From NCBI GenBank assembly GCA_947579605.1, contig OX388319.1, positions 19,915,447-19,979,446 of the forward strand: DNA of 64,000 nucleotides. The letters are read 5' to 3'. Made by a program: the position numbers and the translations under genes. The DNA is from Athripsodes cinereus. Lineage: Eukaryota > Arthropoda > Insecta > Trichoptera > Leptoceridae. The notes beneath the pieces were generated by a model. That model did not search any database. It was given only the letters and a program-made list of their open reading frames with translations, and was not told where the DNA came from. The first letter of the stretch is position 1. The number at the start of each line of letters is the position of its first letter. Below, piece by piece: positions 23,440-63,718 of this stretch.

Positions 23440-25045
23440 TAAATATAATTTAGTGTCAATATTAATACTTGTATGTAATTTATGATATTGCGAGTAATGG
23501 TCTATAAGTGTCTGAAAATAATCATGACTCTATGGCACTGGACTTGTTCAAATGTCTCATAAACTATCGCTGGATTGAAAGTTACCTCAAAGAGAGAACA
23601 CTTAGAGTCAGGGTTGGTGATTGTGTCTCTAAAATGGTATTTGCTTACAGTGGTGTGCCTCAGGGTTCGCACTTGGGACCAATACTATTTAATGTGTTTA
23701 TCAATGACATAGTTCAGATCTTCAGGGACATAGAGGTGTTGTTATTTGCTGATGATCTAAAGTTATATAAGTTTATCGGTAATATGGAAGACTGTACAAT
23801 ACTACAAACTAATTTAGATTCTCTAAATGACTGGTGCAAGAAAAATAAGCTTTGCCTAAATATCACAAAATGTCAGGTCATTAGATTCCATAAAACCAAA
23901 TCTAAAATTGTTTTCAATTACTCAATTGATAACGTTGTACTTGACTCTGTCACAAATTTGAAGGATCTAGGCATCACCTTCTCTGAGGATCTGACTTACA
24001 ACTTACAAATAGAGGAAATTGTTGGTAGGTCTATGAGGACTCTGGGTTTTGTGTTTAGACTGGTTAAAGACTTTCAACTTATTCAGTCTTGTAGACTACT
24101 TTTCGTCTCTCTTGTGAGACCCTTACTAGAGTACAATACCACAGTATGGTCCCCGAACTATGCTATCCACTGTAAAAGTTTGGAAAGGGTACAGAGAAAG
24201 TTCTTGAGATTGATAAATTACAGACTGGGAATACCTATTGAGAATATTGAATATCCAGTCTTAATGAGTGAGCTTGGTCTCCTCAGTCTCGAGAACCGTA
24301 GGAAGATGTTTGACCTTTGTTTCCTACACAAGATTCTAAATGGTGCAATCGATTCTCTTGAACTGATTGAACTGATCCAATTTAATGTCCCTTTTAGAAA
24401 TACGAGACAATCTGTGACTTTTCACGAGTCTTATACTAGAAACAACTATACCTACCATACTCCAATAAACAGACTTCATAGACTTGGTAATCTGGTTGGT
24501 GAAAACACAGATATTTTTGCCGACAGTTTCCTCAAATACAGATCTGACATCATCAAATTTTTATGTGCATAAACTGACAATGGGTAGTCGAGGTTCAGAG
24601 TTTACTTGTTTTTTTCTGTAATATTTATCATTTTTGGTGGGATGAGTCCATGTGTATAATTTGAAATCTTATTTATAAAATATTATTTATAACTTGCTGT
24701 ATATATATAAAATTATTTGACCTTAATTTGTGATTTTTTTAACTAACTGACCATTTGTTTTTCTGTTTGACATTTAATATTTATATCATTTCAATTTCAA
24801 AATAATTTTTTTGAATTTTATTTCTTGACCAAATTTTATTTTTAATTTTTTTTTTTTTAAATTGAGTCAACATTGTTCTATTATTTGATTGTACTCTTGT
24901 TTTGTGTCTAATTAATTGTTTTGTGTCTTTTTTTAAAAGAAAAATATTTTTTGTATGCATGTATTGTATGTATACTAGTTTTTTACATGTAAAAGGCTTC
25001 GGCCGTGAATATCTGAATAAATAAAAATAAATAAATAAATAAACG
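23440..25045 (+). mobile_element. family J jockey/CR1-like LINE, 5'-truncated
   Basis: A partial LINE directly after a Helitron. It comprises the C-terminal two thirds of the RT protein (23508-24572), a 3' UTR of roughly 440 bp and the terminal box TTTTACATGTAAAAGGCTTC followed by an AATAAATAAAAATAAATAAA tail. The tail box defines further truncated copies at 1.9, 13.8, 36.9, 52.7 and 58.5 kb. I could not fix a target duplication. Confidence 0.8.
23508..24572 (+). CDS. reverse transcriptase C-terminal region of family J LINE
   Basis: An uninterrupted frame of 354 codons. It opens at a GTG that is not a real start, because the element is 5'-truncated. Motifs include SWIESYL-like WIESYLKERTLRV (residues 22-34), SGVPQGSHLGPILFNVFIND (48-67, RT block 4), LLFADDLKLY (78-87, catalytic DD of block 5), LNDWCKKNKLCLNITKC (105-121) and NLKDLGITF. 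The LEYNTTVWSP segment and a long helical C-terminus complete the thumb. RT blocks 0-3 and the endonuclease are missing. The intact reading frame suggests a young insertion, but it cannot transpose by itself. Confidence 0.85.
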   Translation: MSENNHDSMALDLFKCLINYRWIESYLKERTLRVRVGDCVSKMVFAYSGVPQGSHLGPILFNVFINDIVQIFRDIEVLLFADDLKLYKFIGNMEDCTILQTNLDSLNDWCKKNKLCLNITKCQVIRFHKTKSKIVFNYSIDNVVLDSVTNLKDLGITFSEDLTYNLQIEEIVGRSMRTLGFVFRLVKDFQLIQSCRLLFVSLVRPLLEYNTTVWSPNYAIHCKSLERVQRKFLRLINYRLGIPIENIEYPVLMSELGLLSLENRRKMFDLCFLHKILNGAIDSLELIELIQFNVPFRNTRQSVTFHESYTRNNYTYHTPINRLHRLGNLVGENTDIFADSFLKYRSDIIKFLCA

Positions 25046-39736: not shown

Positions 39737-40099
39737 ATACCTACTAGTGATGTAACGAATGTGTGAATTTGGATATTCGCGAATGCGAATATTGACTTGC
39801 TCAGATTTCGACAATATTGCTCAATCATTAAAATTTCTACCCCCCCCCCGTCGCCGAATTTTCAAAATGGTATAGGAATTTAAAATATTTCAAAACTCCT
39901 CGGTTTTCTTAAAGAACATTTTCTTGCAGTACCTTTTTCTGCAATTTACCGGGTAAGTATCCGGTACTTTTACCGAATATCCGATACTTTATTACCAAAA
40001 ATTACCAAAAAAAAACCATTACGCAAAACATTCGCATAGTTTTTTGCGAATACTTCGAAATATGCGAATACGAATATTCGTTACATCACTAATACCTAC
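39737..40099 (+). mobile_element. hAT MITE, empty-site relative of the composite elements
   Basis: A 347-bp element (39745-40091) with 16-bp TIR TAGTGATGTAACGAAT and its inverse, flanked by the perfect 8-bp duplication ATACCTAC (39737-39744, 40092-40099). An 8-bp duplication plus this TIR type indicates the hAT superfamily. It encodes nothing. Its left 230 bp and right 110 bp align with the two arms of the composites at 46.4 and 59.7 kb. The LINE present there is missing here, between about 39978 and 39982 (CCGAAT / ATCCGATAC). Confidence 0.9.
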
Positions 40100-46379: not shown

Positions 46380-49300
46380 ATACCTACTAGTGATGTAACG
46401 AATGTGTGATTTTGGATATTCGCGAATGCGAATGCGAATGCGAATATTTGTTGCCGACATTCGCGAATGCGAATGCGAATAGCGAATATTGACTTCAAAA
46501 TGGTATAGGAATTTGAAATATTTCAAAACTCCTCGGTTTTCTTAAAGAATATTTTTTTGCAGTACATTTTTCCACAATGTACCGGGTAAGTATCCGGTAC
46601 TTTCAGCGAATTACTGATTTTTTTCTTCATTTACATGGTACACAACAGATGAAACACATATAAATATAAACATGTAAGCGACAAAAACATTCCAATAGTC
46701 TTACATCGAAACAGTGCACACTTCAGCAATAACACACAAAACAATTATAGAAAATCTTACACACAATACATTAATTCACAATACATCCACTCACCCAATT
46801 TCGCACACATAATACATTCATTCGCACAAACACATTCACACTTCACTGATGTATGCAATAACAATACAAAAAAAAAACTCTAAAAAAAGAAAAATCAAAA
46901 ATGTAAAAAACAGACTAAAAATAAATACTATCCCAAACACTTCACATTTTATCAAACATATACATTTTTTTTATATTTATTTCATCTTTTTCTACTCTCA
47001 ACTCTCCTTTCTCACAAACCTGACGTAATTGGCACTTTAAAATTCTATAAACAGGGTTTCTTGAGTCTTCGTTTTTGTTTTTTTTTTTAAATGTAGAACG
47101 GAAAACAAGATCTTGTTAAAGGAAGCATTCTAAAGTTAATCCTATCTAAAATATTAGGCACATCGTATTCGGACAAGCATATTTTTCTCAGGTTGCATGC
47201 ATCTAGCAAAACTCTTCTTTATTCCAATTTAGGCAACCCTTTAATAAATACAGGATAATGCAATCTCTTCCTAACCAAACGAATGAATTTAGACTGAGTT
47301 CTCTCAACTTGATCGACATATTTTTTTAAAATGTGGATTCCATACAGAGGAACAGTACTCCAGCTTGGAGCGAATCAACGATAAGTACAAGGACAAATAC
47401 GATTCATATAACCTAAATAACTTTGTAGATCTCAGAATAAATCTCAGTATTTTATTGCTCTCTTCGATAATTTTGTTCACGTGATCATCAAAGTGAAGTT
47501 CAGAGTCAAATACCACACCTAAATCTCTAATCTTATGTACTTCTTTTAAATCATGATTATGGATATTGTAAATTTATCGAATTTTGTTTCTATTTTTGGT
47601 AAAAGAGATCAGATTACACTTCTCTAGATTCAAGTGCAAGTTATTTCTGTTACAGTACTCGTGTAGTCTTCCCAAGTCCTCGTTAACCATTTCACAGTCA
47701 AATAATAATTGAATTTGACAGTATATTTTTAAATCGTCCGCAAATAATAGAAGATCTGAGTGTTTAAAGCACTTTTTTATGTCGTTTATGAATATCGTGA
47801 AAAGTAAAGGACCCAAAACAGACCCCTGAGGGACACCAGATGTAACACTGACACTGTCAGATGAGTGACCGTTAAGTTTAACTGTCATCAATCTATCAGA
47901 AATGTATGAGTCAATCCACCTTAGAAGATTCCCATGAATTCCATGAAATTCTAACTTCTTAATCAAAAGTCGATGTTCTACTTTATCAAATGCCTTTTGA
48001 AAGCCGATATAAATGGCATCCAACTGTATACGATTGTCCATAGCTGAGAAAAAAAAACAGATTTGTTACTGTCGATCTTCCACTCATGAATCCATGCTGC
48101 TCTACAAGAAGATACGGCTTCAGGAAAAAAGTCATTTCTTCACGAACAATACCCTCAAATATTTTTGAAATAGGTGAATTGAAATTGGTCTGTAGTTACG
48201 AACGTCCGATTTGCTGCCAGATTTATGCAAAGGAGTAATATTAGCCATCTTCCATTTGCATGGAAAGCACCCTTCTTGTAAACTCCTAATAAATATCAGA
48301 TACAATGGTTTGGTTAAATGACTTACACACATCTTTTATATTATTGGTGCTATACCATCAGGGCCAACTCCTTTTGTCTCATCTATACCTAATAAACGTT
48401 TATGAATATAAGATTTCAAGATATTAACCGTGGATAAACATGAGTTTGTTAAAATATTTTCCGATTCTTCAGTATTAGAATCATGTAAATTATTCAGTGA
48501 AAATACAGAACCAAAAAACGACGAAAACAAGTTCGCAATTCCCTCTGGATCGCTCGAAGTCTGGTCACCGTCAGCCGTTACCCTTGGATAGCTTCTAGAT
48601 TCTTTAAGGGAATTCACGAACGAAAAGAAAGACTTGACATTGCCCTTAAGTGACTTCTCAATGTTATTAATAAAAGACCTATAATCATGATTCTGCGACA
48701 ACTTCAACTGAGCTCTTAGTTGAAAAAATAAATTGTAGTCAGAATCATTACGGTTCATCTTCCAATTACGCCAAGCCTTGGACTTTATCTTAAACAACAC
48801 AGTTCTATTAGAGAACCATTTGGAAAAATTATTAGGTGCCACCCTCTTCATAGGTGTATGCTTCTCAATTATTGGCAAAACATAACCATAAAAAGATTCA
48901 ACCATCTCATTCACCGGTCCGTTTCCCAAAACGCTGACCCAATCAACACTTTGTAGTTCAAAATTTATTTCCGAAAAGTATATCAATTTCTGGATCATAT
49001 TTTGAGACAAATCCTCAGCAATTTCAAACTCATAATTTATCAACAGTGAAGGATAGTGTGAATCCTTACCAACCAGTGGAGAGTCACATCTGGTAACAGA
49101 ACACGGAATAGTTGAAAGAACTAAATCCAAGATAACTTGATTGCTGTTATAAACTCCGTTAGACTGAAACATATTGAGAAAAGATATAGATTCTATCAAA
49201 TACTGCGCAACAGGACCCGAATAAGAATACGGAACAAAGATTGACTCAACATCAGGGTCTTTTTTCCACTGGATTGTTGGAATATTGAAATTTCCAATAA

Positions 49301-50103
49301 GACAAATATCCGTTTTGTCGTAATAGCTGATTAAACGTTCAGATATACTTTTAAAAAAGATGTTTTAAGTATCTAAGGATGTGGAAGGCGGTATATATAC
49401 TACACCTAGTAGCGATGAGCATTTTTCCATGGAACTATGTGTTACCGATGAAAAACGAATACTGGTAAAAAAACTTTCACCAATATCATCCCAAACAAGA
49501 GTGGGTGAACATCCTAGTGTCCGATTTACAGCAATTAAGACCCCACCTTCATCCCTTTTACCACTCAACATGAAATCCCTATCCTTCCGGTAAACTGTAT
49601 ATTCGTTTTGAAAAAGTTCGCTATCAAATATCCCACAATTTAGCCAAGTTTCCGTCAGAACAATCATATCATAATTATTTGCAAATAAGTTTGCTCTAAA
49701 CTCCTCGATCTTAGACTTCAAGCCCTGAAAGTTCTGAGAGAATACTTAAGTGTGGTTCACCTTGTAGTATGATATAAATATTCCCTAAATAGAATATAAA
49801 ATTATTGTAGGGCCCTATACTCATAGCAGTTGTACAATACTTAAAACAAACATATAAATTAAATCTCCACAAATGCATACTTCTCCCAATAATAATAACA
49901 TCATCAAGCAAACGAACACATGAAACAATACAACAAATGCGGCCAACACGGAACAGACCAGATACATTATTACTAAAATAATATTCGCAAAATATTCGCA
50001 TATTTTTTTGCGAATGCGAATGCGAATGCGAATACTTTGAAATATGCGAATATTCGCGAATGCGAATGCGAATGCGAATATTCGTTACATCACTAATACC
50101 TAC
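46380..50103 (-). mobile_element. composite hAT transposon carrying a LINE, copy 1
   Basis: Element 46388-50095 (3708 bp) starts TAGTGATGTAACGAAT and ends with the exact inverse, flanked by the perfect 8-bp duplication ATACCTAC (46380-46387, 50096-50103). The outer arms (46388-46611 and 49961-50095) align with the 347-bp MITE at 39745-40091. Between them lies a jockey/CR1-like LINE (46612-49960). Sub-terminal GCGAAT hexamer arrays are prominent in both arms. No hAT transposase is encoded, so movement would need transposase supplied in trans. Strand is given for the LINE. Copy 2 (59674-63718) is the same chimera with a different target duplication. Confidence 0.92.
46612..49960 (-). pseudogene. 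jockey/CR1-like LINE cargo of composite copy 1
   Basis: A single LINE protein, broken into pieces. Endonuclease (49721-49365): LTETWLNCGIFDSEL, YRKDRD and GGVLIAV, ending at an in-frame TAA (49365-49367). The frame resumes with ISERLISYYDKTDICLIGNF (the usual GDFN has become GNFN), then linker and RT N-terminus (49199-48336, 48332-48132: ITPLHKSGSKSDVRNYRPIS). The RT core (48041-47574) has FQKAFDKVEHRLL, TSGVPQGSVLGPLLFTIF and LLFADDLKIY; an in-frame TAA follows at 47574-47576. The thumb (47516-47304) has DLGVVFDSELHFDDH and SKLEYCSSVWNPHFKK. No separate ORF1 is seen. The AFDK and FADD catalytic motifs survive, but stops and frameshifts make it non-functional. Confidence 0.88.
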
Positions 50104-50179
50104 CATACATTTATCCGGATTTTATTTCTGCTTGGGTTATGCCTTAGTTTTGAAAAATGAATTTTACGCCAAGGATGTG

Positions 50180-50411
50180 TTCCGTGGAGCATCCAACAAG
50201 GAAAAGGTCTCCCACTCCTTTCTGTAATATTTCAAGTATCCTGTAAAAGGTAGGTGTTCGAAAAATAAAAATTAATTACATCTGAGTTCAGTGATTCAGC
50301 AGGTTTACCACCTATACTGAAAGTCTTATTTTTTGTTAGCACAGAGAGGACAGCTGGCACGTTTATTGGATTGTGGAATATGCTCTGATGGTAGGTATAG
50401 TAGTAGTATAA
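50180..50411 (+). mobile_element. family S SINE-like repeat, copy 12
   Basis: From TTCCGTGGAGCATCCAACAA through CTGTAAAAGGTAGGTGTTCG and AGAGAGGACAGCTGGCACG to ATGGTAGGTATAGTAGTAG. The CTGGCTACCCCACTTG block is partly deleted. Confidence 0.78.
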
Positions 50412-51245
50412 GTTTTAGCAAAAGACGAATATGTTAGTTTTAATTATTTTAACTTTTAATTATTATAAAGTCTATCAAGTGTAATTTTTAACTACTTAAT
50501 TTCATGATTATTGTCTTGTTTTTTGCCTTTGATTTGAGTAGGGTAAAGTATTTCTTGTTATTATTTACTAGCAACGTGTTCGTCATACGCTTCGGTAATT
50601 TGCGGGACCTTGATTGGTTTGTTTGATGGAGAAATTTGAATGTTGATATTTGTTAGGTTGAACTGTTTGTGTCCCTTAAGAATATAAAAAGAAAAGTTAT
50701 GTCATAGTGAGGCGACTTCACCTTTCTATTGAAATTATGTCGTATAGTAGAACACATAAAAATAATGTTAAGTATTTTTTTTATTTAATTTCAATGTATT
50801 TCGTCAACAACTGCTACTTAAATACTATGGCGGATATTCAAGGAATTAATTTAATTTATTTAAATGTTGTTACGGTAGGTACCTAATTATAAAATTGTGA
50901 ATAATTTCGCCAGTGGTAAATAACTATTATCATAATATAATATGATATGCGAATGCAAACCGAAAACACTAGACAGTGGCGTAACCATAAAATATAACAC
51001 CAAATGCAACATGTATGGTGAGACTTAATTGCCCAATGCCAATGAAAAGAACTAACTCATGTCAATTAAAAGAATAAGATGGATTTAAAAGTAATAAAGA
51101 TCTCGAAAGATATAAATTCCCTTGCACATACCGACTTGTCTCCAGGATAGTATTTTACCCGAAAATAGGGTATACTGCATTCTATTTAGTTGTTCTGTTT
51201 TTATACGATGATTTCAAAGTAAATAAATTGTTCACATTATAGTAT
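50412..51245. other. AT-rich stretch, nothing recognised
   Basis: No supported gene or element. Confidence 0.4.
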
Positions 51246-51251
51246 GTTCCA

Positions 51252-51550
51252 AATTCTTGATAGTTTCAAAGTCGCTTCCATCGGCGAAAAAGTAACTGAA
51301 AACAGATTAAGATGGAACGGACACATTTTGAGTTGACCACAGGATAATATGATAAAAAGGACAATGGACATAGAAGTAGGACCCAGAAGACCAGGCAGAC
51401 CAGTGACCACCTGGATATCCACATTTGCCAAGGACCTAGGGGAGGCAGAGCTGCGTTCGGAGGATGCAGGGGACCGGAGAACTTAGAGGGTGATGACTAG
51501 GAAAGCCGAACCCAAATAAATGGGGTAAAGGCGATGGCGAAGAAGAAGAT
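51252..51550 (+). pseudogene. family B RTE-like LINE tail, copy 2
   Basis: Parallel to 21448-21725 from TAGTTTCAAAGTCGCTTCC onward. It encodes NRLRWNGHIL, a stop, then KRTMDIEVGPRRPGRPVTTW and FAKDLGEAELRSEDAGDRR. The RRPGRP..TW block is typical of the RTE C-terminus. It ends GGCGATGGCGAAGAAGAAG. One in-frame stop and small indels make it a pseudogene. Confidence 0.78.
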
Positions 51551-51554
51551 GCAA

Positions 51555-52005
51555 TAGGTCTAATTGAATTTTTCGCAGAAAATAAAATGTCAAAATCACA
51601 TTGAAAAATATGCGAAATACTGAGACAATCTGAGGATTGACAGTCTTTTATGTTATTGTTTGTAATCAATGTACAGTAAAGAATGAATAAAATAAAAATT
51701 AATAAAATTATAAAGAAGTGGGTAAATGTTTGTATATACAGATTTTTTGTTTGAGATTAATGATTCGCCACTGTGATTTCATCTCCATAGAGATAAGAAA
51801 GTTGTGAGTAATGTAGTGGCGTCTCTGTCTCACTAGTTGGAGATGTGATTTATATGTCTTTATCACGCGGTCAGAGTTTGCCTGCAGGCGAGGCCGCTTT
51901 CACTATCGCACGACGAATTCACAATACAATGTGACAGGGTTGCCAATACACACTTTTTTAATGTTCTCTATATCTCTATCTATACCATCTATCTATCTAC
52001 AACTA
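51555..52005. other. no gene recognised; GC-richer segment at 51870-51960
   Basis: ATCACGCGGTCAGAGTTTGC and GTGACAGGGTTGCCAA stand out from AT-rich surroundings and could be part of a promoter or an unassigned repeat. A GATA-rich run follows at 51960-52000. Confidence 0.3.
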
Positions 52006-52008
52006 GTA

Positions 52009-52125
52009 CTTTACCATCACGTCAAATCTAACAAGTGGGCTAGCCAGCAGACCAACTGCATAAAATGAACATGCAAGCTGTCCTCTCCATTCCAACATTA
52101 AATCAAGACATTCAGAATGGGTAGC
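52009..52125 (-). mobile_element. family S SINE-like repeat, copy 13, partial
   Basis: On the minus strand: CCATTCTGAATGTCTTG, GGAGAGGACAGCTTGCATG, CTGGCTAGCCCACTTGTTAG, GACGTGATGGTAAAGTACTA. The 5' half is missing. Confidence 0.75.
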
Positions 52126-52129
52126 AATC

Positions 52130-52595
52130 CTCTCTCTTAATCTATCTCTCCATCTATATTATAATGACATATTCCATAAGTGAGCCAGCAGACTCACTGC
52201 ACTTACTACTTTTACGATATTGAATTATGATACATTTTAATTCACTTTGAATGATTTCTCTATGCAAATTAAGTTTAATCTGGAATTAGATAATATTTCA
52301 TTGAGACATTCCAACAAAAAATATTAAAATAAAAACAAAATTTAAAAAAAATCTGGTTAGTGGCATTGTGTTCATTGAGTGAAATTTGTCGAACATTTTG
52401 GAATATAGAGTTACAATCACTGCATCCTTCAACGAAATGTTCAATTCTTCTTAAAAAGCGAGAGTTAAATTCGTTTTTTAAATTCCACTTTTTTGTATCT
52501 CATTATTATGTTTATTCAATTGAAGCATTCACCACAAAAAAAATATTTAAATATAGGTAAGTATATTTTTTAAATTTAAATTTTCTTTCTTTGAC
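52130..52595. other. AT-rich stretch, nothing recognised
   Basis: No supported gene or element. Confidence 0.35.
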
Positions 52596-52599
52596 CTGC

Positions 52600-52828
52600 T
52601 GTTATCAGTGGTTTATATACTTAATTACTATTTCATTCTGACACTCCATAACTGACTTATTATACAGACATTTTTTTATTGATTATTATTATTTTGATCT
52701 TGACGTATGAATTTGTAATGTACCTGTGTGATTGTGTACGAATGTTTTTTGTTGTTGTTGTTATCTGTCATAATTTATAAACATGTGAAAGGCTCACGCC
52801 GTATATGATTGAAATAAATAAATAAAAT
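52600..52828 (+). mobile_element. family J LINE 3' UTR fragment
   Basis: T-rich non-coding DNA ends ACATGTGAAAGGCTCACGCC, then GTATATGATTG and an AAATAAATAAATAAAAT tail. Confidence 0.6.
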
Positions 52829-52829
52829 A

Positions 52830-53520
52830 AGTAAATTTTTCACATTTTATTCCCTTCGGTAGATACATAACTAGCATTATTATATTATTAGGGTTTCACA
52901 AAAATGCATTCTCGTAAAAAAACACTTTGATCGGCCCTGTATGTACCAGGAATCCAGTGCAGTGTAGTATATTCTGTACCTAATATCACGGTGCTCACAC
53001 TATACTCAATAATATTCATATATGATATCATATGTTATTATATTGTTATGTATGGATAGCTGTTGTAAGTGAGCCTTCATTATACTGTTGTTGATTTTTG
53101 TATCGGTCTATTATAATAGAACTCATCATACGTGATACAAGTAATTACGTATTCTCTATGTCGCATCCAATGCAGAATAGAATCTATGTAAATTTTGCAT
53201 GGATCAATAATGTGCTATCAGAATTATCGTTTCTATTAGCAAATGGGTACGTGCGAGAAATTTAAAAAAGGAATGTTCTTCTCTATCTGTATCATTTTGG
53301 TATTCCTCACGTTCAGGAGCAAGTTGAAGACATCGCTCTTCTATGTAACATAGTTTCCTGCGCCCTTGAGATGGATGCTCCATTAAACGGCGCCGAATAA
53401 ATCTTTCAACATACATACATACGCCGAAAATGAGATCTTTGTGAAGGATGTACAGAAAGAGGTCCACAGCAAAAAAATAAACTAATTATAATCATAAGGA
53501 CGTATCTAGGATATATTCTA
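52830..53520. other. AT-rich stretch, nothing recognised
   Basis: No supported gene or element. The frame at 53204-53467 on the minus strand has no known motif. Confidence 0.4.
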
Positions 53521-53525
53521 GGGGG

Positions 53526-54472
53526 AATTAATTTCAATTGTATGCGACCTGTGAAAGAGATGGATGTTGGTGTCGAGCTGAATGGGTTTCGGGTGAATGC
53601 ATTGATGTACGCAGATGATTTGGTGTTAATGGCTGAGAGTGAAAGGGACTTACAAGAGATTGTTACGTGTGTGTATGATAGTTGCAATTTGAATGGTTTG
53701 AAAATGAACGTTATGAAGACGAAAGTTCTTGTTTTTGAAAGAGAGAATGAAAAAACGATTTGCGAGATTAAAGTTGGTGACGAATGTTTGGAGCAAGTAA
53801 GTGAGTATGTATATTTGGGAAGTATGTTTACGAGGGATGGAAGATGCGATAGGGACATTGAAAGAAGGAAAGTGGCCGGTGCTAGAGTAAACGGTGCACT
53901 TCGACCCATTGTCAGCAATGACAATGTGTCGAACATGGCTAAAATGCTGGTGCACAACACCATTCTGGTATCGTCACTTACGTATGCAAGCGAGACATGG
54001 ACGTGGTTGAAGAAGGACGAAAGTGGAATAAATGCAGTAGAGATGCGATCGTTGAGAAGAATGGTTGGTAAAACGCTGCGTGATAGAGTGAAGAATGAGG
54101 ATATTAGAAGAATGAGCGGATGCAAGAAGACTGTTGTGGACAGAATGCGTGTAAATAAATTGAGATGGTTTGGTCATGTGGAACGAATGAAAGAGGAAAG
54201 AATGACAAAGAGGATATACTTATCTGAAAGAAAGGGTGTGAGGAAACGCGGGCGTCCGAGAACCACGTGGCTTGATCACGTGGATCAAATTCTCAAGGAT
54301 GGCCGCGTGTTGAGTAAGAGGAACCGACGTGCGTGTATGAGGAACTGTATGAATGTGGAGGAAGCGAAGGAAGTGTGTAAAGATAGATCTGTTTGGCGTT
54401 CCGTTCTCTCTGCCTACCCCACTTGGGACACGGCGTGAGGGTATAGTATAGTATAGTATAATTAATTTCAAT
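53526..54472 (+). mobile_element. family A RTE-like LINE, copy 6, longest, 13-bp TSD
   Basis: Insert 53539-54459 (921 bp) is flanked by perfect 13-bp copies of AATTAATTTCAAT (53526-53538, 54460-54472). It is 5'-truncated inside the RT domain and otherwise uninterrupted. It ends GGCGTGAGGGTATAGTATAG with a TATAG microsatellite. The exact duplication and open frame indicate a recent insertion. Confidence 0.95.
53542..54438 (+). CDS. RT C-terminal region of family A RTE-like LINE
   Basis: An open frame of 298 codons to the natural TGA. MYADDLVLMAES at residues 22-33 is RT block 5 with the catalytic DD. NGLKMNVMKTKVLVF (51-65) and VYLGSMFTRDG (90-100) are blocks 6-7. YASETWTW follows at 148-155, then LRWFGHVERM at 187-196 and RGRPRTTWLDHV at 216-227, which are hallmarks of RTE-type LINE C-termini. 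The final residues PTWDTA overlap the conserved 3' box. Everything before block 5, including the endonuclease, is missing, so the ATG at 53542 is fortuitous. The RT would copy LINE (and possibly family S) RNA at nicked targets. The minus-strand open frames over the same bases are shadows. Confidence 0.9.
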   Translation: MRPVKEMDVGVELNGFRVNALMYADDLVLMAESERDLQEIVTCVYDSCNLNGLKMNVMKTKVLVFERENEKTICEIKVGDECLEQVSEYVYLGSMFTRDGRCDRDIERRKVAGARVNGALRPIVSNDNVSNMAKMLVHNTILVSSLTYASETWTWLKKDESGINAVEMRSLRRMVGKTLRDRVKNEDIRRMSGCKKTVVDRMRVNKLRWFGHVERMKEERMTKRIYLSERKGVRKRGRPRTTWLDHVDQILKDGRVLSKRNRRACMRNCMNVEEAKEVCKDRSVWRSVLSAYPTWDTA

Positions 54473-54531
54473 CTGACTAGTCGACTTAAAAGGGGGGTTC
54501 TTCAGCAATAAGCAAGATACCCTTCTGTCCA

Positions 54532-54660
54532 ATTTATTTATTTATTTTCTTCGACCTCCATAGGCTCCGCAATGGGCACTTGGGGGTGTCAATCCAGACT
54601 ACATTTTAAAAACATATTACACAAGGAACAAGAAATGAAATATTAATAGACAAATAAATT
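54532..54660 (-). mobile_element. LINE tail, AATAAATAAAT end
   Basis: On the minus strand: GACACCCCCAAGTGCCCATT, GCGGAGCCTATGGAGGTCG, then AAGAAAATAAATAAATAAAT. A GC-richer end before a poly(AATA) tail is seen in several LINE families here. No coding remnant. Confidence 0.45.
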
Positions 54661-54887
54661 AATAAGGCAATATATGTAAATGTTAGGTCTATCTTTTAAT
54701 AGCAAGGGTTATCTGCACGCTTTGATGCTATTTCAACATATTTTCCGCACTTGAGTATTACCTACTTTTCCCTACTTTGGGACATGCCTCCTTCTAGGCA
54801 CATCCTTGCTATGTACTATATCCATCAAACACCACTTCCTAATCTTAATTTATTACTGATATTTGTAACTTTTACTGTTATTTGTAA

Positions 54888-55028
54888 CTACACATATCAT
54901 CCGAAGATCCACAAGTAATACAAAGATTACATATTACAGCTAGAGAATATAGACACAGTACAAGTGCAAGACATGTTTTTAAATTATGTAAATATTGTAA
55001 TATGAATCGTATGAGTGATGCACTGTAG
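54888..55028 (+). other. possible terminal exon running into the satellite
   Basis: A frame of 46 codons ends in TAG at 55026. It contains DPQVIQRLHITAREY, then STSARHVF and KLCKYCNMNRMSDAL. The last 15 codons lie in the first 74-bp satellite unit. A possible 3' splice site is the AG at 54905-54906 after a T-rich stretch. A 46-codon open frame is not rare by chance in DNA of this composition. The amino-acid mix looks protein-like, but I do not recognise it. Treat as a hypothesis. Confidence 0.22.
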
Positions 55029-56388
55029 ATGGTAGACAATGTATGTAGATAATAAAATTATGTAAATATTGTAATATGAATCGTATGAGTGATGCACTGT
55101 AGATGGTAGACAATGTATGTAGATAATAAAATTATGTAAATATTGTAATATGAATCGTATGAGTGATGCACTGTAGATGGTAGACAATGTATGTAGATAA
55201 TAAAATTATGTAAATATTGTAATATGAATCGTATGAGTGATGCACTGTAGATGGTAGACAATGTATGTAGATAATAAAATTATGTAAATATTGTAATATG
55301 AATCGTATGAGTGATGCACTGTAGATGGTAGACAATGTATGTAGATAATAAAATTATGTAAATATTGTAATATGAATCGTATGAGTGATGCACTGTAGAT
55401 GGTAGACAATGTATGTAGATAATAAAATTATGTAAATATTGTAATATGAATCGTATGAGTGATGCACTGTAGATGGTAGACAATGTATGTAGATAATAAA
55501 ATTATGTAAATATTGTAATATGAATCGTATGAGTGATGCACTGTAGATGGTAGACAATGTATGTAGATAATAAAATTATGTAAATATTGTAATATGAATC
55601 GTATGAGTGATGCACTGTAGATAGTAGACAATGTATGTAGATAATAAAATTATGTAAATATTGTAATATGAATCGTATGAGTGATGCACTGTAGATAGTA
55701 GACAATGTATGTAGATAATAAAATTATGTAAATATTGTAATATGAATCGTATGAGTGATGCACTGTAGATAGTAGACAATGTATGTAGATAATAAAATTA
55801 TGTAAATATTGTAATATGAATCGTATGAGTGATGCACTGTAGATGGTAGACAATGTATGTAGATAATAAAATTATGTAAATATTGTAATATGAATCGTAT
55901 GAGTGATGCACTGTAGATAGTAGACAATGTATGTAGATAATAAAATTATGTAAATATTGTAATATGAATCGTATGAGTGATGCACTGTAGATAGTAGACA
56001 ATGTATGTAGATAATAAAATTATGTAAATATTGTAATATGAATCGTATGAGTGATGCACTGTAGATAGTAGACAATGTATGTAGATAATAAAATTATGTA
56101 AATATTGTAATATGAATCGTATGAGTGATGCACTGTAGATAGTAGACAATGTATGTAGATAATAAAATTATGTAAATATTGTAATATGAATCGTATGAGT
56201 GATGCACTGTAGATAGTAGACAATGTATGTAGATAATAAAATTATGTAAATATTGTAATATGAATCGTATGAGTGATGCACTGTAGATAGTAGACAATGT
56301 ATGTAGATAATAAAATTATGTAAATATTGTAATATGAATCGTATGAGTGATGCACTGTAGATAGTAGACAATGTATGTAGATAATAAA
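54983..56388 (+). repeat. 74-bp satellite, exactly 19 units
   Basis: Units start every 74 bp from 54983 to 56315, in phase throughout; a five-base partial unit follows. Each unit contains ATTATGTAAATATTG, GAATCGTATGAGTGATGCAC and GTAGACAATGTATGTAG. The units are identical except at one position: units 1-8 and 12 read GATGGTAG, units 9-11 and 13-19 read GATAGTAG. Since 74 is not a multiple of three, the repeated 67-codon minus-strand frames are artefacts. Near-identity implies very recent expansion or homogenisation. Confidence 0.97.
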
Positions 56389-56389
56389 A

Positions 56390-56700
56390 TTATATACATA
56401 TGTTGTTGAATGCAGTAAGTATGATACTATTATTGATAAGTGTAATGAAATATTATGTTTACAAATAGTAAAACATGAGCCAGACACTTAACAACAGAGA
56501 AAGTCCATCTTTTATGCAATAACTTTGGTATACGAACATTGAAAATGCACAATTTACAAAAACCTTAAAAATAAATATTTGCACGTAATAACAAGTATTA
56601 ATTATTTTCTCAGAAAACATGTTTCTTAATTAGAATAGAAAAATAAATGTTTGCCATTTCACTCTATGACACTAAGATGGTTATGGTCTCTGCTCCAATA
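56390..56700. other. AT-rich stretch, nothing recognised
   Basis: Unique-looking AT-rich sequence between the satellite and a LINE tail. Confidence 0.35.
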
Positions 56701-56703
56701 CGG

Positions 56704-56840
56704 AATAATAATAAAAATCTTTATTGCACAAAAAAAAACAAACATTATTAAAATATAAATATTGTAGAACCAGACAAATAAATTTGTGCAGTGGGCGAGT
56801 TTATCGCAGAAGCGCGATATCTTCCAACTAACCCATCAAA
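56704..56840 (-). mobile_element. LINE/SINE tail with conserved stem-loop, copy 4
   Basis: On the minus strand: TTGGAAGA, stem TATCGC-gcttct-GCGATA, AACTCGCCCAC, an AT-rich body and a TTATTATTATT end. The stem differs in sequence from copies 1-3 but keeps pairing. Confidence 0.65.
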
Positions 56841-57104
56841 CAAAAAAAATAAAATAAAAATGATTGTACAACCTATATACCTGTCGCAAAATACACATTT
56901 TTGAACCAATAGGTACTACTTGTTTATGACTAATTGATATGAAATTGATTTGCTCACACGATGTTATTGGTCTCATTACCATTTTTTTCTTTGAATTTAT
57001 AGTCTATACTATAAAAGTCTTTGGCAATTTAATAATTTCTAGAGTTTATATTTATTATCAAACAATTTTTTATCCGATCTCAGATACAAATCATCTTCGT
57101 CCTA

Positions 57105-57190
57105 GTGGCGATGTAGTCTTCTCTGTCACTACTCATGCGATCCACACGGCCCCTGCAGAACCGTCTTCTTTTTCTGCTCCAGCGAACTAT
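57105..57190 (-). pseudogene. LINE C-terminal fragment (RWSRKRRRF type), copy 2
   Basis: On the minus strand RWSRKRRRFCRGRVDRM is followed by SSDREDYIAT. It is the same block as 22436-22632, and only about 28 codons remain. Confidence 0.55.
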
Positions 57191-57194
57191 TCAA

Positions 57195-57855
57195 ATACGT
57201 ATTTGAAAGTCTCATGTAAACAAAGAAAAATATACTTAGGGCCAACATTATAAAAGTCCGTTAACTCAAGTTTTTTTAATATGGTCCAAAATTTGATATA
57301 ACTACTCGTTTTTCAGCATTATAAACATCCGTTGATATTATTTCAGTAAAATGTTACCATCGGCTTTAACTGGCCGACCGACCAGGGATTAGTTTTGACG
57401 ACTAGCATTGCTGTCTCACTATTTGCCTGAAGAGTGAAAGGAATAACAATGGATGAATCTACGCACGTGTTTTGTTAGGATATATTCTCATAGCATAGTC
57501 AAAATGTGTTGGACGCCTGACTGACATATAGGTGCATATCTGTTTTGAGTTTTGTATGTGTGACGCAATATAATAATAATAATAATGTAAGAAGCCAACT
57601 GTTAGAGAAAACATAAATTAAAAATTTTCTTAACAACTTCTCCGTATCATAGATACGGAGAACTCGTATTATGCAGTATGTGGGTAGGTGGTATGCATTA
57701 TTATAATACAATTTCAATATATCATCCATTATATTATCTCTGTTACAAATATAGGTTTATCACCGTAGAATTATATCTCACACATGCCTAAAAGGGGAGT
57801 AGACATCAGTATGCAATAAATATGCGAATCGTCATCTCCGTGGAATTAAAAAAGG
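57195..57855. other. no gene recognised; small perfect hairpin at 57638-57662
   Basis: TTCTCCGTATC-ata-GATACGGAGAA forms an 11-bp stem with a 3-nt loop. Otherwise AT-rich sequence with an AATAATAATAAT run near 57580. Confidence 0.4.
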
Positions 57856-57859
57856 AGAA

Positions 57860-58217
57860 GAATGAGCGGATGCAAGAAGAGTGTTGTGGACAGAATGCGC
57901 GTGAATAAACTACGGTGGTTTGGGCATGTTGAACGAATGAACGAGGTAAGAATGACAAAGAGGATATACTTATCTGACAGAAAGGGTGTGAGGAAACGCG
58001 GGCGTCCGAGAACCACGTGGCTTGATCACGTGGATCAAATTCTCAAGGACGGCCGCGTGTTGAGTAAGAGGAACCGACGTGCGTGTACGAGGAACTGTAT
58101 GAATGTGGAGGAAGAGAAGGAAGTGTGTAAAGATAGATCTGTTTGGCGTTCCGTTCTCTCTGCCTACCCCACTTGGGACACGGCGTGAGGGTATAGATAG
58201 ATAGATAGATAGATAGA
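57860..58217 (+). pseudogene. family A RTE-like LINE tail, copy 7, open frame
   Basis: The frame 57862-58188 (108 codons) is fully open to the natural TGA: MSGCKKSVVDRM, LRWFGHVERMNEVRM, RKRGRPRTTWLDHVDQILKD, NRRACTRNCMNVEEEKEV and YPTWDTA. The end is GGCGTGAGGGTATAGATAG with a GATA microsatellite. It is 5'-truncated close to the start of copy 4. I could not define a target duplication. Highly similar to the 53.5-kb copy, so recent. Confidence 0.9.
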
Positions 58218-58224
58218 CATTGAG

Positions 58225-58290
58225 AATGAGTGGAATACCTGATATTTGTAGGACAGTTCAAAACTTACAGAACAGAGTAGGAGAGATAAA
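58225..58290 (-). mobile_element. family S fragment, copy 14
   Basis: The inverse of CTCCTACTCTGTTCTGTAAG, TTTTGAACTGTCCTACAAA, TATCAGGTATTCC resembles the 5' block of family S (CTCCCACTCTTCTCCGTAAG, TCCTGTAAAAGGCAGGTGTT). Only about 65 bp remain. Confidence 0.5.
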
Positions 58291-58474
58291 CAATTTGTCA
58301 TTTTTAGATGAATAAAAATCTCAAAATAATTTCTTCTGTCGTTAGGTGTAAGTATATGTAAACAACGCTTACCTACTCTTTGAATAAGGTGCATAGAGTA
58401 TAACAATATAATATTAATAAGTTGTGACTTAATCAGGTCTAGTATGACAAACAATTAGTTTTTTCTCGTTATAT

Positions 58475-58720
58475 AATATTGATTTATTTTATTATTTTTA
58501 TTTTACATAAACTCACGGCATAAGCCTATTACATGTTAAAAATACACATATACAAATACTTACAAATTAAACAGTGACAAATATCACAAAATACTAGAAC
58601 ATTAAAATTAAGAAACCAAATAATCAACAGTAAACAGAGAACCAATTTTGGATTTTATATTGGTTCGCGAAAATTCTATGAAAAATTGTTTGCGTAATAA
58701 AGTATGCCAGCTCCCATAGC
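58475..58720 (-). mobile_element. family J LINE 3' UTR fragment
   Basis: The plus strand begins TTTATTTTATTATTTTTATT, then ACTCACGGCATAAGCCTATT and ACATGTTAAA, the inverse of the family J end box, with substitutions. Confidence 0.55.
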
Positions 58721-58724
58721 CATA

Positions 58725-59005
58725 ATTTCATTTAGGTAGTTGAATTTATTGATGGAACTCTTAATATAAAACAAAATAAATAGTTTTGTGATGATTTACA
58801 GCTGATCTGTTGTATCATCTGGTGCCTTTGGCATAAGTATCGGATTATAAAATACAAAATATACCCACTGTAACTTACACACATATTGATGATATCAAAA
58901 AGCGCTCATGGCGAATAATAATAATTACTTTGCAGTGCCATAAAAAACATTCAACCATTATTTACATTCGGTACTAGTTTTGTACCTTATGCTTTGGAGG
59001 GTAAA
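58725..59005. other. AT-rich stretch, nothing recognised
   Basis: No supported gene or element. Confidence 0.35.
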
Positions 59006-59009
59006 TAAT

Positions 59010-59157
59010 AGATTTTTTTAAGATGTACCTCTAAAACAACCTTATACACCTTTTACATTAAGTTCAAAGCAAATGGAGGTGTGCCAGCACCTGGAATCGA
59101 ACCGCAGATCTTATGTGCATGAGGCCGAGACTCCAGCTCCAGGTTACCGACGAACTC
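59010..59157 (-). mobile_element. tRNA-derived SINE, copy 2
   Basis: On the minus strand the head GAGTTCGTCGGTAACCTGGA, GCTGGAGTCTCGGCC and the B box GGTTCGATTCC match the SINE at 14919-15126. The body (ACCTTT-TACA, CAACCTTATACACC on the plus strand) also matches. The A-tail is reduced to a short T-run near 59010. Confidence 0.8.
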
Positions 59158-59159
59158 AT

Positions 59160-59670
59160 CAACAATTCAACAATTAACACAGATTTTCGGTGTTTCATTT
59201 GAAACGAGGTTTAAAAAATGGGGAAAATTTTACAAAAACTTACAGCGCTTAATGTTTTCTTAAGGTTTTGTCATAATTATTTTGGATAAAATCTGAGACT
59301 TTACATTATAATGTATTATTATTATTATTAAAAAATATCAAAAATGTTTACACAAATGCAAACAATTCATAGAAAAATGATTTTATTTATTATTTCTTGT
59401 TGTTCGTTTAAATAAAATTAAAATGGAATAGTTTGATAATGTTACAAGGTTGATCCGTTTACTCTACATCCAATATTTCAAACACGGTCCAGAAATAGCT
59501 ATAGCTTTGAAAACAAATACATACATTGAAAATAAAGGCTTAATATTTTTTCCCGCAGTACGTCGAGAGTTCGTATAGTGTGTTATTTGTATTTTACCAC
59601 AAATTACTGTCTAAGATATTATAAAGGACAATAATTAAGTATATTACGAGTATAAACACATTTGGATAGA
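59160..59670. other. AT-rich stretch, nothing recognised
   Basis: No supported gene or element. Confidence 0.35.
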
Positions 59671-59810
59671 TACATACAAACTAGTGATGTAACGAATATT
59701 CGCATTCGCATTCGCATTCGCGAATATTCGCATATTTCAAAGTATTCGCATTCGCATTCGCAAAAAAATATGCAAATGTTTTGCGAATATTATTTTAGTA
59801 ATAAAGTATC

Positions 59811-62800
59811 TGGTCTGTTCCGTGTTGGCCACATTTGTTGTATTGTTTCCTGTGTTCGTTTGCTTGATGATGTTATTATTATTAGGAGAAATATGCATTT
59901 GTGGAGATTTAATTTATATGTTTGTTTTAAGTATTACAACTGCTATGAGTATAGAGCCCTACAATAATTTTATATTCTATTTAAGGAATATTTATATCAT
60001 ACTACAAGGTGAACCACACTAAAGTATTCTCTCAGAATTTTCGGGGCTTGAAGACTAAGATCGAGGAGTTTAGAGCAAACTTATTTGCAAATAGTTATGA
60101 TATAATTGTTCTGACGGAAGCTTGGCTAAATTGTGGCATATTTGACAGCGAACTTTTTCAAAACGAATATACAGTTTACCGCAAGGATAGGGATTTCATG
60201 TTGAGTGGTAAAAGGGATGGAGGTGGGGTCTTAATTGCTGTGGATCGGACACTAGGATATTCATCCACTCTTGTTTGGGATGATACTGGTGAAAGTTTTT
60301 TTTACCAGTATTCGTTTTTCATCGGTAACGCATGAAAAAATGCTCACCGCTACTGGGTGTAGTATATGTATATACCGCCTTCCACATCTTTAGATACTTA
60401 AAACATCTTTTTTTAAAGTATATCTGAACGTTTAATCAGCTATTACGGCAAAACGGATATTTGTCTTATTGGAGATTCCAATATCCCAACAATCCAATGG
60501 AAAAAAGACCCCGATGTTGATTCAATCTTTGTTCCGTATTCTTATTCGTGTCCTGTTGCGCAGTATTTGATAGAATCTATATCTTTTCTCAATATGTTTC
60601 AGTCTAACGGAGTTTATAACAGCAATCAAGTTATCTTGGATTTAGTTCATTCAACTATTCCGTGTTCTGTTACCAGATGTGACTCTCCACTGGTTGGTAA
60701 GGATTCACACTATCCTTCACTGTTGATAGACTATGAGTTTGAAATTGCTGAGGATTTGTCTCAAAATATGATCCAGAAATTAATATACATACTTTAAGTC
60801 AAACTTTTCGGCAATAAATTTTGAACTACAAAGTGTTGATTGGGTCAGTGTTTTGGGAAACGGACCGGTGAATAAGATGATTGAATCTTTTTATGGTTAT
60901 GTTTTGCCAATAATTGAGAAGCATACACCTACATATGAAGAGGGTGTCACCTAATAATTTTCCCAAATGGTTCTCTAATAGAATTCTGTTATTGTTTAAG
61001 AGAAGTCTAAGGCTTGGCGTAAGTTGAAGATGAACCGTAATGATTCTGACTACAATTTATTTTTTCAACTAAGAGCTCAGTTGAAGTTGTCGCAGAATCA
61101 CGATTATAGGTCTTTTATTAATAACACTGAGAAGTCACTTAAGGGCAATGTCAAGTCTTTCTTTTCATTCGTGAATTCCATTAAAGAATCTAGAGGCTAT
61201 CCAAGGGTAATGGGTGACGGTGACCAGACTTCGAGCGATCCAGAGGGAATTGCAAACTTGTTTTCGACGTTTTTTGGTTCTGTATTTTCACTGAATAATT
61301 TGCATGATTCTAATACTAAAGAATTGGAAAATATTTTAACTAACTCATGTTTATCCATGGTTAATATCTTGAAATCTGATATTCATAAACGTTTATTAGG
61401 TATAGATGAGACAAAAGGAGTTGGCCCTGATAGTCTAGCACCAATATATTAAAGAGATGTGTAAGTCATTTAACCAAACCATTGTATCTGACATTTATTA
61501 GAACACCTTGCTGCAGGAGGCAATCTAGACTATGGGACATGGAAAACCCTAAATCGACTGAGATCTGGTGTAGGAAACTGCCGCGACAATATAGAGAACG
61601 ATTGGGCTTCCTACAGGACGAATCCGGAGCGTGTGACTGTGGTGCAGCACAGACTATGCCACACTTGTTGGAGTGTCCATTGTGCCCTGTCACTTGCACT
61701 ATGGAGGATATTTTTGACGCATCTCCACCTGCTGCGCGTTTTGCGCAGTACTGGAAATCAGTTTGATGGGTTTTTTCTCTGGGTTTCGACACGATAAATA
61801 AATTAGGAGTTTACAAGAAGGATGCTTTCCATGCAAATGGAAGATGGCTAGTATTATTCCTTTGCATAAATCTGGCAGCAAATCGGACGTTCGTAACTAC
61901 AGACCAAATTTTAATTCTATCACCTATTTCAAAAATATTTGAGGGTATGGTTCGTGAACAAATTACTTTTTTCCTGAAGCCGTATCTTCTTGTAGAGCAG
62001 CATGGATTCATGAGTGGAAGATCGACAGTAACAAATCTGATTTTTTTTTCTCAGCTATGGACAATCGTATACAGTTGGATGCCATTTATATCGGCTTTCA
62101 AAAGGCATTTGATAAAGTAGAACATCGACTTTTTTCAACTAAGGTGGATTGACTCATATATTTCTGATAGATTGATGACAGTTAAACTTAACGGTTATTC
62201 ATCTGGCAGTGTCAGTGTTACATCTGGTGTCCCTCAGGGGTCTTCTTTGGGTCCTTTACTTTTCACGATATTCATAAACAACATAAAAAAGTGCTTTGAC
62301 CACTCAGAGCTTCTATTATTTGCGGACGATTTAAAAATATACTGTCAAATTCAATTATTGTTTGACTATGAAATGCTTAACGAGGACTTGGAAAGACTAC
62401 ACGAGTACTGTAAAAGAAATAACTTGCACTTGAATCTGGAGAAGTGTAATCTGATCTCATTTACCAAAAATAGAAACAAAATTCGATAAATTTACAATAT
62501 CCATAATCATGATTTAAAAGAAGTAAATAAGATTAGAGATTTAGGTGTGGTGTTTGACTCTGAGCTTCACTTTGATGATCACGTGAACAAAATTATCGAA
62601 GAGAGCAATAAAATACTGGGATTTATTCTGAGATCTACAAAGTCATTTAGGTTATATGAATCGTATTTGTACTTGTACTTATCGTTGTTTCGCTCCAAGC
62701 TGGAGGACTGTTCCTCTGTATGGAATCCACATTTTAAAAAATATGTCGATCAAGTTGAGAGAACTCAGTCTAAATTCATTCGTTTGGTTAGGAAGAGATT

Positions 62801-63492
62801 GCATTATCCTGTATTTATTAAAGATTTGCCTAAATTGGAATTGTGAAGAGTTTTGCTGGATGCATGCAACCTGAGAAAAATATGCTATTCCGAATACGAT
62901 GTGCCTAATATTTTAGAAAGGATTAACTTTAGAATGCTTCCTTTAACAAGATCTTGTTTTCCGTTCTACATTAAAAAAAAAAACAAAAACGATTGCAGAC
63001 TCAAGAAACCCTGTTTATAGAATTTTAAAGTGCCAATTACGTCAGGTTTGTGAGAAAGGAGAGTTGAGGGTAGAATAAGATGAAATAAATATAAAAAAAA
63101 TGTATATGTTTGATAAAATGTGAAGTGTTTGGGATAGTATTAATTTTTAGACTGTTTTTTAAATTTTTAAATTTTTGATTTTTCTTTTTTAAGAGTTTTT
63201 TTGTATTGTTATTGCATACATTAGTGAAGTGTGAATGTGTTTGTGCGAATGAATGTATTAGGCATGTGTGCGAAATTGGGTGAGCAGCGATTTGTAATAG
63301 GAATGGGTGATTGGATGTATTGTGAATTAATACCTATATTATGTGTAAGATTTTCTATAATTGTTTTGTGTGTTATTGCTGAAGTATGCACTGTTTCGAT
63401 GTAAGACTATTGGAATGTTTTTGTCGCTTACATGTTTATATTTATATGTCTTTCATCTGTTGTGTACCATGTAAATGAAGAAAAAAATCAGT
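59811..63492 (+). pseudogene. jockey/CR1-like LINE cargo of composite copy 2
   Basis: Same gene order as in copy 1, with different private damage. Endonuclease (60009-60335): VFSQNFRGLKTKIEEF, LTEAWLNCGIFDSEL, GGGVLIAVDRT. A stop TAA at 60399-60401 lies at the same codon as in copy 1. GDFN has become GDSN. The linker (60567-60797, 61024-61452) is open in pieces. The RT part keeps IGFQKAFDKVEHR, then a deletion of some 40 bp, then TSGVPQGSSLGPLLFTIFIN and LLFADDLKIY (62172-62489). The TAA at 62487-62489 is again shared. The thumb (62547-62846) has DLGVVFDSELHFDDHV. It is not functional. The 3' end GTAAATGAAGAAAAAAATCA abuts the hAT arm. Confidence 0.88.
61497..61806 (+). mobile_element. LINE tail nested in composite copy 2, with CCHC motif
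   Basis: A 300-bp insert (61502-61801) interrupts the cargo LINE between ...TGACATTTATTAG and GAGTTTACAAGAAGG; copy 1 is continuous there. ATTAG is repeated at 61497-61501 and 61802-61806. The frame to 61766 reads WCRKLPRQYRERLGFLQ, then CDCGAAQTMPHLLECPLC and a stop. The C-x-C...H...C knuckle marks a LINE C-terminus. The tail is GATAAATAA. It inserted after the two composites separated. Confidence 0.85.
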
Positions 63493-63718
63493 AATTCGGT
63501 GAAAGTACCGGATACTTACCCGGTACATTGTGGAAAAAGGTACTGCAAGAAAATATTCTTTAAGAAAACCGAGGAGTTTTGGAATATTTCAAATTCCTAT
63601 ACCATTTTCAAGTCAATATTCGCATTCGCATTCGCATTCGCGAATGTCGGCATGAAATATTCGCATTCGCATTCGCGAATATCCAAAATCAGACATTCGT
63701 TACATCACTAATACAAAC

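Follow-up and report, generated by a model that had tools for sequence, protein, structure and literature searches.

A LINE very probably spread as cargo of a non-autonomous hAT transposon in Athripsodes cinereus

A window of 64,000 nucleotides from the genome of the trichopteran Athripsodes cinereus (GenBank assembly GCA_947579605.1, contig OX388319.1, positions 19,915,447 to 19,979,446 of the forward strand) contains two chimeric elements in which a long interspersed nuclear element (LINE) lies between the arms of a miniature inverted-repeat transposable element (MITE) of the hAT superfamily, and these raise the question of how a retroelement came to occupy the same place in the same DNA transposon more than once. 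Both composites, copy A at 46388-50095 and the inverted copy B at 59682-63710, carry a perfect 16-bp terminal inverted repeat (TIR; TAGTGATGTAACGAAT) at both ends, as does an empty MITE in the same window. They align with each other at 91.7–93.4% identity in two blocks that jointly span the element and are split by 300 bp (61502-61801) found in B only; the LINE reads on the minus strand in A and on the plus strand in B. An earlier reading of the window (the original prediction) had described matching TIRs and perfect 8-bp target duplications at both copies, and these are confirmed in the window letters. As for the internal junctions that it took to be shared, the right one (49960/49961) stands, and the left one (46611/46612) is moved to about 46618/46619 by comparison with TACCG-type empty MITEs. 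The answer developed here is that a single insertion of the LINE into a hAT MITE was, very probably, followed by joint hAT transposition of the two to more than 600 copies.

Junctions were counted across the genome (716 Mb in 160 contigs, including the window) with 34-base patterns at up to 3 mismatches, and the reversed-pattern control gave 0 matches each time. The junction of the hAT arm with the LINE 3′ end occurs at 630 places (315 + 315) and the junction with the LINE 5′ end at 666 (333 + 333), far beyond the two copies for which a genome-wide search with both junctions had been suggested; chance matching is excluded because each junction recurs hundreds of times and its reversed pattern not at all. 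The LINE 3′ end alone is found at 946 places (465 + 481), 630 of which carry the standard hAT junction at equal stringency. LINE sequence just inside the 5′ junction is found at 697 places (352 + 345), and by these counts (666/697, a comparison of totals in which places were not paired individually) the 5′ part of the LINE occurs almost only joined to a hAT arm. The uninterrupted insertion site is present at 2,476 places (1,231 + 1,245; control 0). In a first DNA search, all 40 matches scored, out of 1,174 candidates, spanned the junction.

Transposition of the whole composite by hAT machinery, as the original prediction proposed for A and B, is supported many times over. Perfect 8-bp duplications flank 19 of the 25 composites examined (16 of 22 in a first set comprising A, B and loci L031-L050; 3/3 in a further set, L105-L107), and all 19 differ when read in the orientation of the element; those of B and L039 are mutual reverse complements. 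Position 7 of the duplication is A in 19/19, and 16 of the 19, with T at position 2, fit the form nTnnnnAn, which is presumably that of Ac-type hAT elements. Genome-wide, the joined flanks of A find nothing beyond their own two halves, and the same holds for B; they are therefore single-copy, and 600-bp flanks of 22 copies (the left flank only for copies without a right end) have nothing in common but repeats of up to 174 bp. Even A and L031, which lie on different contigs and differ by only 0.19%, have a single ~105-bp repeat in common in their flanks, in opposite orientation. Segmental duplication of one chimera would account for the likeness of the copies in sequence, but it is almost certainly not the explanation: the flanks of the 22 copies and the differing duplications speak against it, and for A and B it is out because both flanks are single-copy. 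The claim that A and B stand in unrelated DNA thus holds, and no long flanks are shared between them. Retrotransposition reading through into the arms is ruled out by the hAT ends and by the 8-bp duplications on both sides.

Empty paralogous sites were sought among the fetched loci, with one partial case (L036 vs. L042), blurred by a microsatellite. L044 was considered as another such site and rejected, its match being two adjacent composites. At about 4158-4186 of L044 (A-like orientation) these composites lie side by side with their TIRs 12 bp apart, and their target sites, ACACATAT and ATATACAC, overlap.

Whether the LINE entered the MITE once or repeatedly can be read from the arms. The insertion site is read through in all 14 empty sites fetched, four of which (L110-L113) are flanked by a perfect 8-bp duplication within the stretch examined. 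ACCGAAT is preceded by C in 76/76 composite rows (57 distinct places) and by T in 15/15 empty elements; on the far side of the LINE, 22 of the 23 composite rows that can be read have T, against C in 13/13 readable empties (53 composite rows and 2 empties being unreadable there). Private arm alleles common to the composites point to one founding insertion rather than to repeated site-specific insertion. Of 18 copies aligned at the 5′ junction, 16 are identical there, the exceptions being L040, with extra bases, and the rearranged L043. All 20 LINE 3′ ends fetched from outside the listed standard junctions join this arm at one and the same base and vary in substitutions or in T-run length; these 20 could not include free elements because they were drawn from places with 0–1 mismatches. 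MITEs with the LINE at many different sites, which the original prediction had named as evidence contrary to it, were thus not seen among the composites sampled.

A LINE with target specificity for one MITE site might instead have inserted many times independently, hAT moving only the MITEs. In favour of this, every composite sampled uses the same base, the site is plentiful (the 2,476 uninterrupted places) and outside the MITE no free LINE body turned up; it is nevertheless quite unlikely, given that private alleles flanking the LINE on either side are common to composites and absent from empties, that 16 of the 18 copies aligned at the 5′ junction agree there, that changes in the LINE tail (see below) are likewise common to composites and absent from free elements, and that free elements with the LINE 3′ end, the expected substrates of such an enzyme (though not the same LINE), lie in unrelated DNA in 12 of 12 cases. 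A search for the full LINE 5′ end outside an arm returned only two shifted composites (identified by their letters) and two damaged loci, L103 and L104. In these two, composite LINEs are without the 5′ hAT arm, the 3′ arm and TIR being kept in L103; the arm may have been lost by deletion, replacement or another process.

The composite has itself been interrupted. The 300 bp that split the alignment of A and B lie inside the LINE in B, L105, L106 and L107, and the junction of this nest occurs at 514 places (264 + 250; control 0). By translation the 300 bp in B look like a fragment of a second LINE, and the version that contains them has spread as hAT cargo with its LINE interrupted. The 3′ junction of copy B is T-type, yet its body, which matches L105 at 99.8% over 2,510 bp, belongs to the nested-fragment lineage; B is perhaps a recombinant or a reversion.

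Sequences that share the 3′ end of the LINE do exist outside the hAT arms. A pattern of the LINE 3′ end followed by a non-arm flank, at no more than 1 mismatch, matched 258 places (control 8). Among the 100 of these that were listed, 87 are TAAA-tailed ends, 4 are composites whose T run is shifted and the other 9 belong to neither kind, and there is no exact (0-mismatch) LINE 3′ end with a non-arm flank; the 4 places with an exact core are composites by their flank letters. Twelve of the 87 TAAA-tailed places were fetched, and 12/12 match the LINE 3′ end outside arms, in unrelated DNA. Seven of the 12 stop at differing points within the LINE 3′ end, with a clear target duplication for L091 only. 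The five longest (L093, L098, L100, L101, and L102) match copy A over ~430 bp and then, from about position 425–474 onward, all continue with a C-rich run and a second body common to the five, which none of the composites compared contains. This second body had no Rfam match in 5 loci and no match above 27 bp among the loci compared; the five elements may be non-autonomous partners, similar to short interspersed nuclear elements, or a relative with another body. A reading of the free elements as copies of the composite's LINE is not upheld, since the five longest share its last 430 bp only.

Free elements are 84–100% alike in pairs (many pairs 97–100%, the low values with L101) and 86.2–94.5% alike to copy A. 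In a tree of the shared 3′ part (427 columns; 55 composite rows from 37 places and 6 free elements; L095, L091, and L004 dropped as too short), composites and free elements are split on one branch with support of 100/97, the bootstrap not having settled. In composites the tail reads GAAGAAAC or GAAGAAAA; it resembles that of the free elements, GAATAAAT, apart from changes that are common to composites and absent from free elements. The original prediction had named copies of the LINE outside hAT arms with the same ends as evidence against itself; sharers of the 3′ end are indeed there, but with a different tail and in a separate clade.

The LINE within the composite retains recognizable domains. 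Matches to RVT_1, the reverse transcriptase (RT) domain, reach 4.8e-21 in copy A and 2.3e-19 in L034, and a weak Exo_endo_phos match (21.2 bits, under the cut-off of 24.5) was read in L047, which is the basis for the endonuclease-like part assigned to the LINE of copy A. Protein relatives number 4,086; the best 120 were listed, the top ones 55–56% identical and with names uninformative for clade. Open frames were checked in 21 of the more than 600 composites, and the longest spans 429 codons in one set of 18 copies; in 3 copies of the nested-fragment lineage the maximum is 177. The RT motif is FADF in L034, L036, L038, and L045, FAAF in L046, FTDD in L037 and FADD in most other composites read. 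Singleton differences at codon positions 1/2/3 number 66/64/85 (p = 0.15), 449 of 2,886 columns with a conflicting frame being left out of codon-position counts. The frames of these 21 copies and the nested fragment at 514 places gave no sign of continuing retrotransposition by the composite's LINE, and the LINE looks like decaying cargo that would contribute nothing of its own to the spread, because frames are broken, catalytic residues are lost in some copies and change is near-equal across codon positions. Of the hybrid lineage with two mobility modes that had been envisaged, the second working mode was thus not borne out.

It is very unlikely that hAT moves the composite and the LINE still retrotransposes from inside it. 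The free 3′-end elements are young by the likeness of many pairs, FADD is kept in many composites and the frames read are those of just 21 copies, all of which would suit two working modes; against these stand the single branch that separates free elements from composites, the other body of the five longest free elements, the lack of an exact match among the 100 listed places (of 258), a count of LINE 5′ sequences barely above that of 5′ junctions (697 vs. 666), frames no longer than 429 codons, FADF or FAAF in 5 copies and the interruption of the LINE at 514 places. A related idea, which must be counted a long shot, is that the LINE survives chiefly as hAT cargo and that a few intact hAT-borne copies still supply RT to the young free elements; if so, a cut-and-paste transposon would sustain and disperse a retrotransposition system.

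The composites thus have intact hAT ends and 8-bp duplications, stand at hundreds of sites and share private alleles. The history that would best explain them begins with one insertion of the LINE, presumably by retrotransposition, into a ~350-bp non-autonomous hAT element; a single insertion is suggested by the anatomy, in which the tail of the LINE lies directly against the arm while the site is continuous in empty elements. hAT transposase, probably supplied in trans, would then have cut and pasted the ~3.7-kb composite, and could continue to do so because the hAT ends remained intact, until it reached the more than 600 copies evident from junction counts, duplications and unique flanks. 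One composite later acquired the second LINE-like fragment, and the resulting three-layer nest multiplied too, as its 514 places show, the LINE probably adding no activity of its own.

Several observations weigh against this account. Six of the 25 composites are without a perfect duplication: that of L049 is off by one base, those of L040 and L041 mismatch, and L032, L033, and L037 show no right TIR within the stretch fetched. One readable composite row has A, not T, at the far-side allele. Insertion of the LINE into the MITE left a duplication of at most 3 bp (GAT), and the capture step was therefore not a cleanly target-primed insertion. No free LINE body was found, and hence no donor or true LINE 5′ end. 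Variants shared among copies number 19/29/37 at codon positions 1/2/3 (p = 0.055), and with this slight third-position excess a brief period of constraint on the LINE frame may have occurred. Finally, an autonomous hAT element with the exact TIR, which the original prediction had proposed to look for, was not found among 40 transposase 3′ ends read (150 scored, 648 candidates). A hAT family at L089, L132, and L134 ends in the TIR TAGAGATGAAACGGAT, which differs at 3 of 16 bases, and is possibly a relative of the missing autonomous element, though a lead only. In the course of this search four hAT transposase frames with equal scores, each of 634 codons, were noted 35–37 kb apart at G000:C21:14518960-14627625, likely a tandem duplication.

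The features of the window are collected in Table 1. Elsewhere in the window are a tandem array with a 74-bp period (54981-56401; shifted self-matches 96.6–99.6% alike) and other retroelement remnants with RVT_1 matches at 17779-18300 (just under the curated cut-off) and 23508-24572.

Table 1. Positions of the two composites, their parts and the empty MITE in the window.
Feature	Positions	Strand	
Copy A, left 8-bp target duplication ATACCTAC	46380..46387	.	
Copy A, left hAT MITE arm; TIR TAGTGATGTAACGAAT at 46388-46403; private allele GTACTTTC	46388..46618	+	
Copy A, cargo LINE with its 3′ tail at 46619, an RT remnant, a putative endonuclease-like remnant and a broken frame	46619..49960	-	
Copy A, right hAT MITE arm; TIR reverse complement at 50080-50095	49961..50095	+	
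Copy A, right 8-bp target duplication ATACCTAC	50096..50103	.	
Copy B, left 8-bp target duplication ATACAAAC	59674..59681	.	
Copy B (inverted relative to A), hAT arm on LINE 5′ side; TIR 59682-59697	59682..59810	-	
Copy B, LINE cargo, split by nested second LINE fragment	59811..63486	+	
Second fragment nested in the LINE, LINE-like by eye, with a TAAA-type tail and, in one frame, a CxCG..H..C peptide	61502..61801	+	
Copy B, hAT arm on LINE 3′ side; TIR 63695-63710	63487..63710	-	
Copy B, right 8-bp target duplication ATACAAAC	63711..63718	.	
Empty MITE of the same family, without LINE; target duplication ATACCTAC at 39737-39744 and 40092-40099	39745..40091	+	

These elements represent the spread of a class I element as class II cargo on a large scale (630/946 LINE 3′ ends and 666/697 5′ parts). 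They also form a series within one genome, from empty MITE to MITE with LINE to MITE with LINE and second fragment, which allows cargo size, copy number and decay to be measured, and they call for caution in annotation: the numbers and ages of such LINE copies reflect hAT activity, not retrotransposition. In the titles and beginnings of abstracts found, no LINE multiplied inside a hAT MITE is described, which does not establish its absence from print; Tx1L, the LINE of the Xenopus elements considered below, is named in PMC4585706 and PMC6895275.

The composite resembles several known kinds of element and departs from each. With APE-type (apurinic/apyrimidinic endonuclease) non-long-terminal-repeat retrotransposons, i.e., LINEs, it has in common an RT domain, a putative endonuclease-like domain and a TAAA-derived tail, but its copies end in hAT arms and hAT duplications rather than in target duplications of their own. 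Like MITEs of the hAT superfamily as they are generally described (Ac-type by the form nTnnnnAn), the family has TIRs, an 8-bp duplication, no internal transposase seen and thousands of copies; unlike them, part of it carries a 3.3-kb LINE, about 10 times the length of the empty element. Pack-MULE and other capture transposons are likewise said to multiply foreign sequence between the ends of a DNA transposon, although here the cargo is a retroelement, most likely self-inserted, and gene pieces are not involved. Closest are the composite Tx1 and Tx2 elements of Xenopus, reportedly described by Garrett, Knutzon and Carroll in 1989, in which a non-LTR retrotransposon is said to lie within an inverted-repeat DNA transposon that exists in empty and filled versions. 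The paradox of Tx1 was reportedly resolved by a target-specific LINE, Tx1L being specific for Tx1D. Independent insertions of that kind into the same site were not borne out in A. cinereus; unlike in Xenopus, the private arm alleles and the single clade of composites indicate one insertion multiplied as a unit, and what fits the Tx1-like paradox here is another resolution, one insertion followed by joint transposition.

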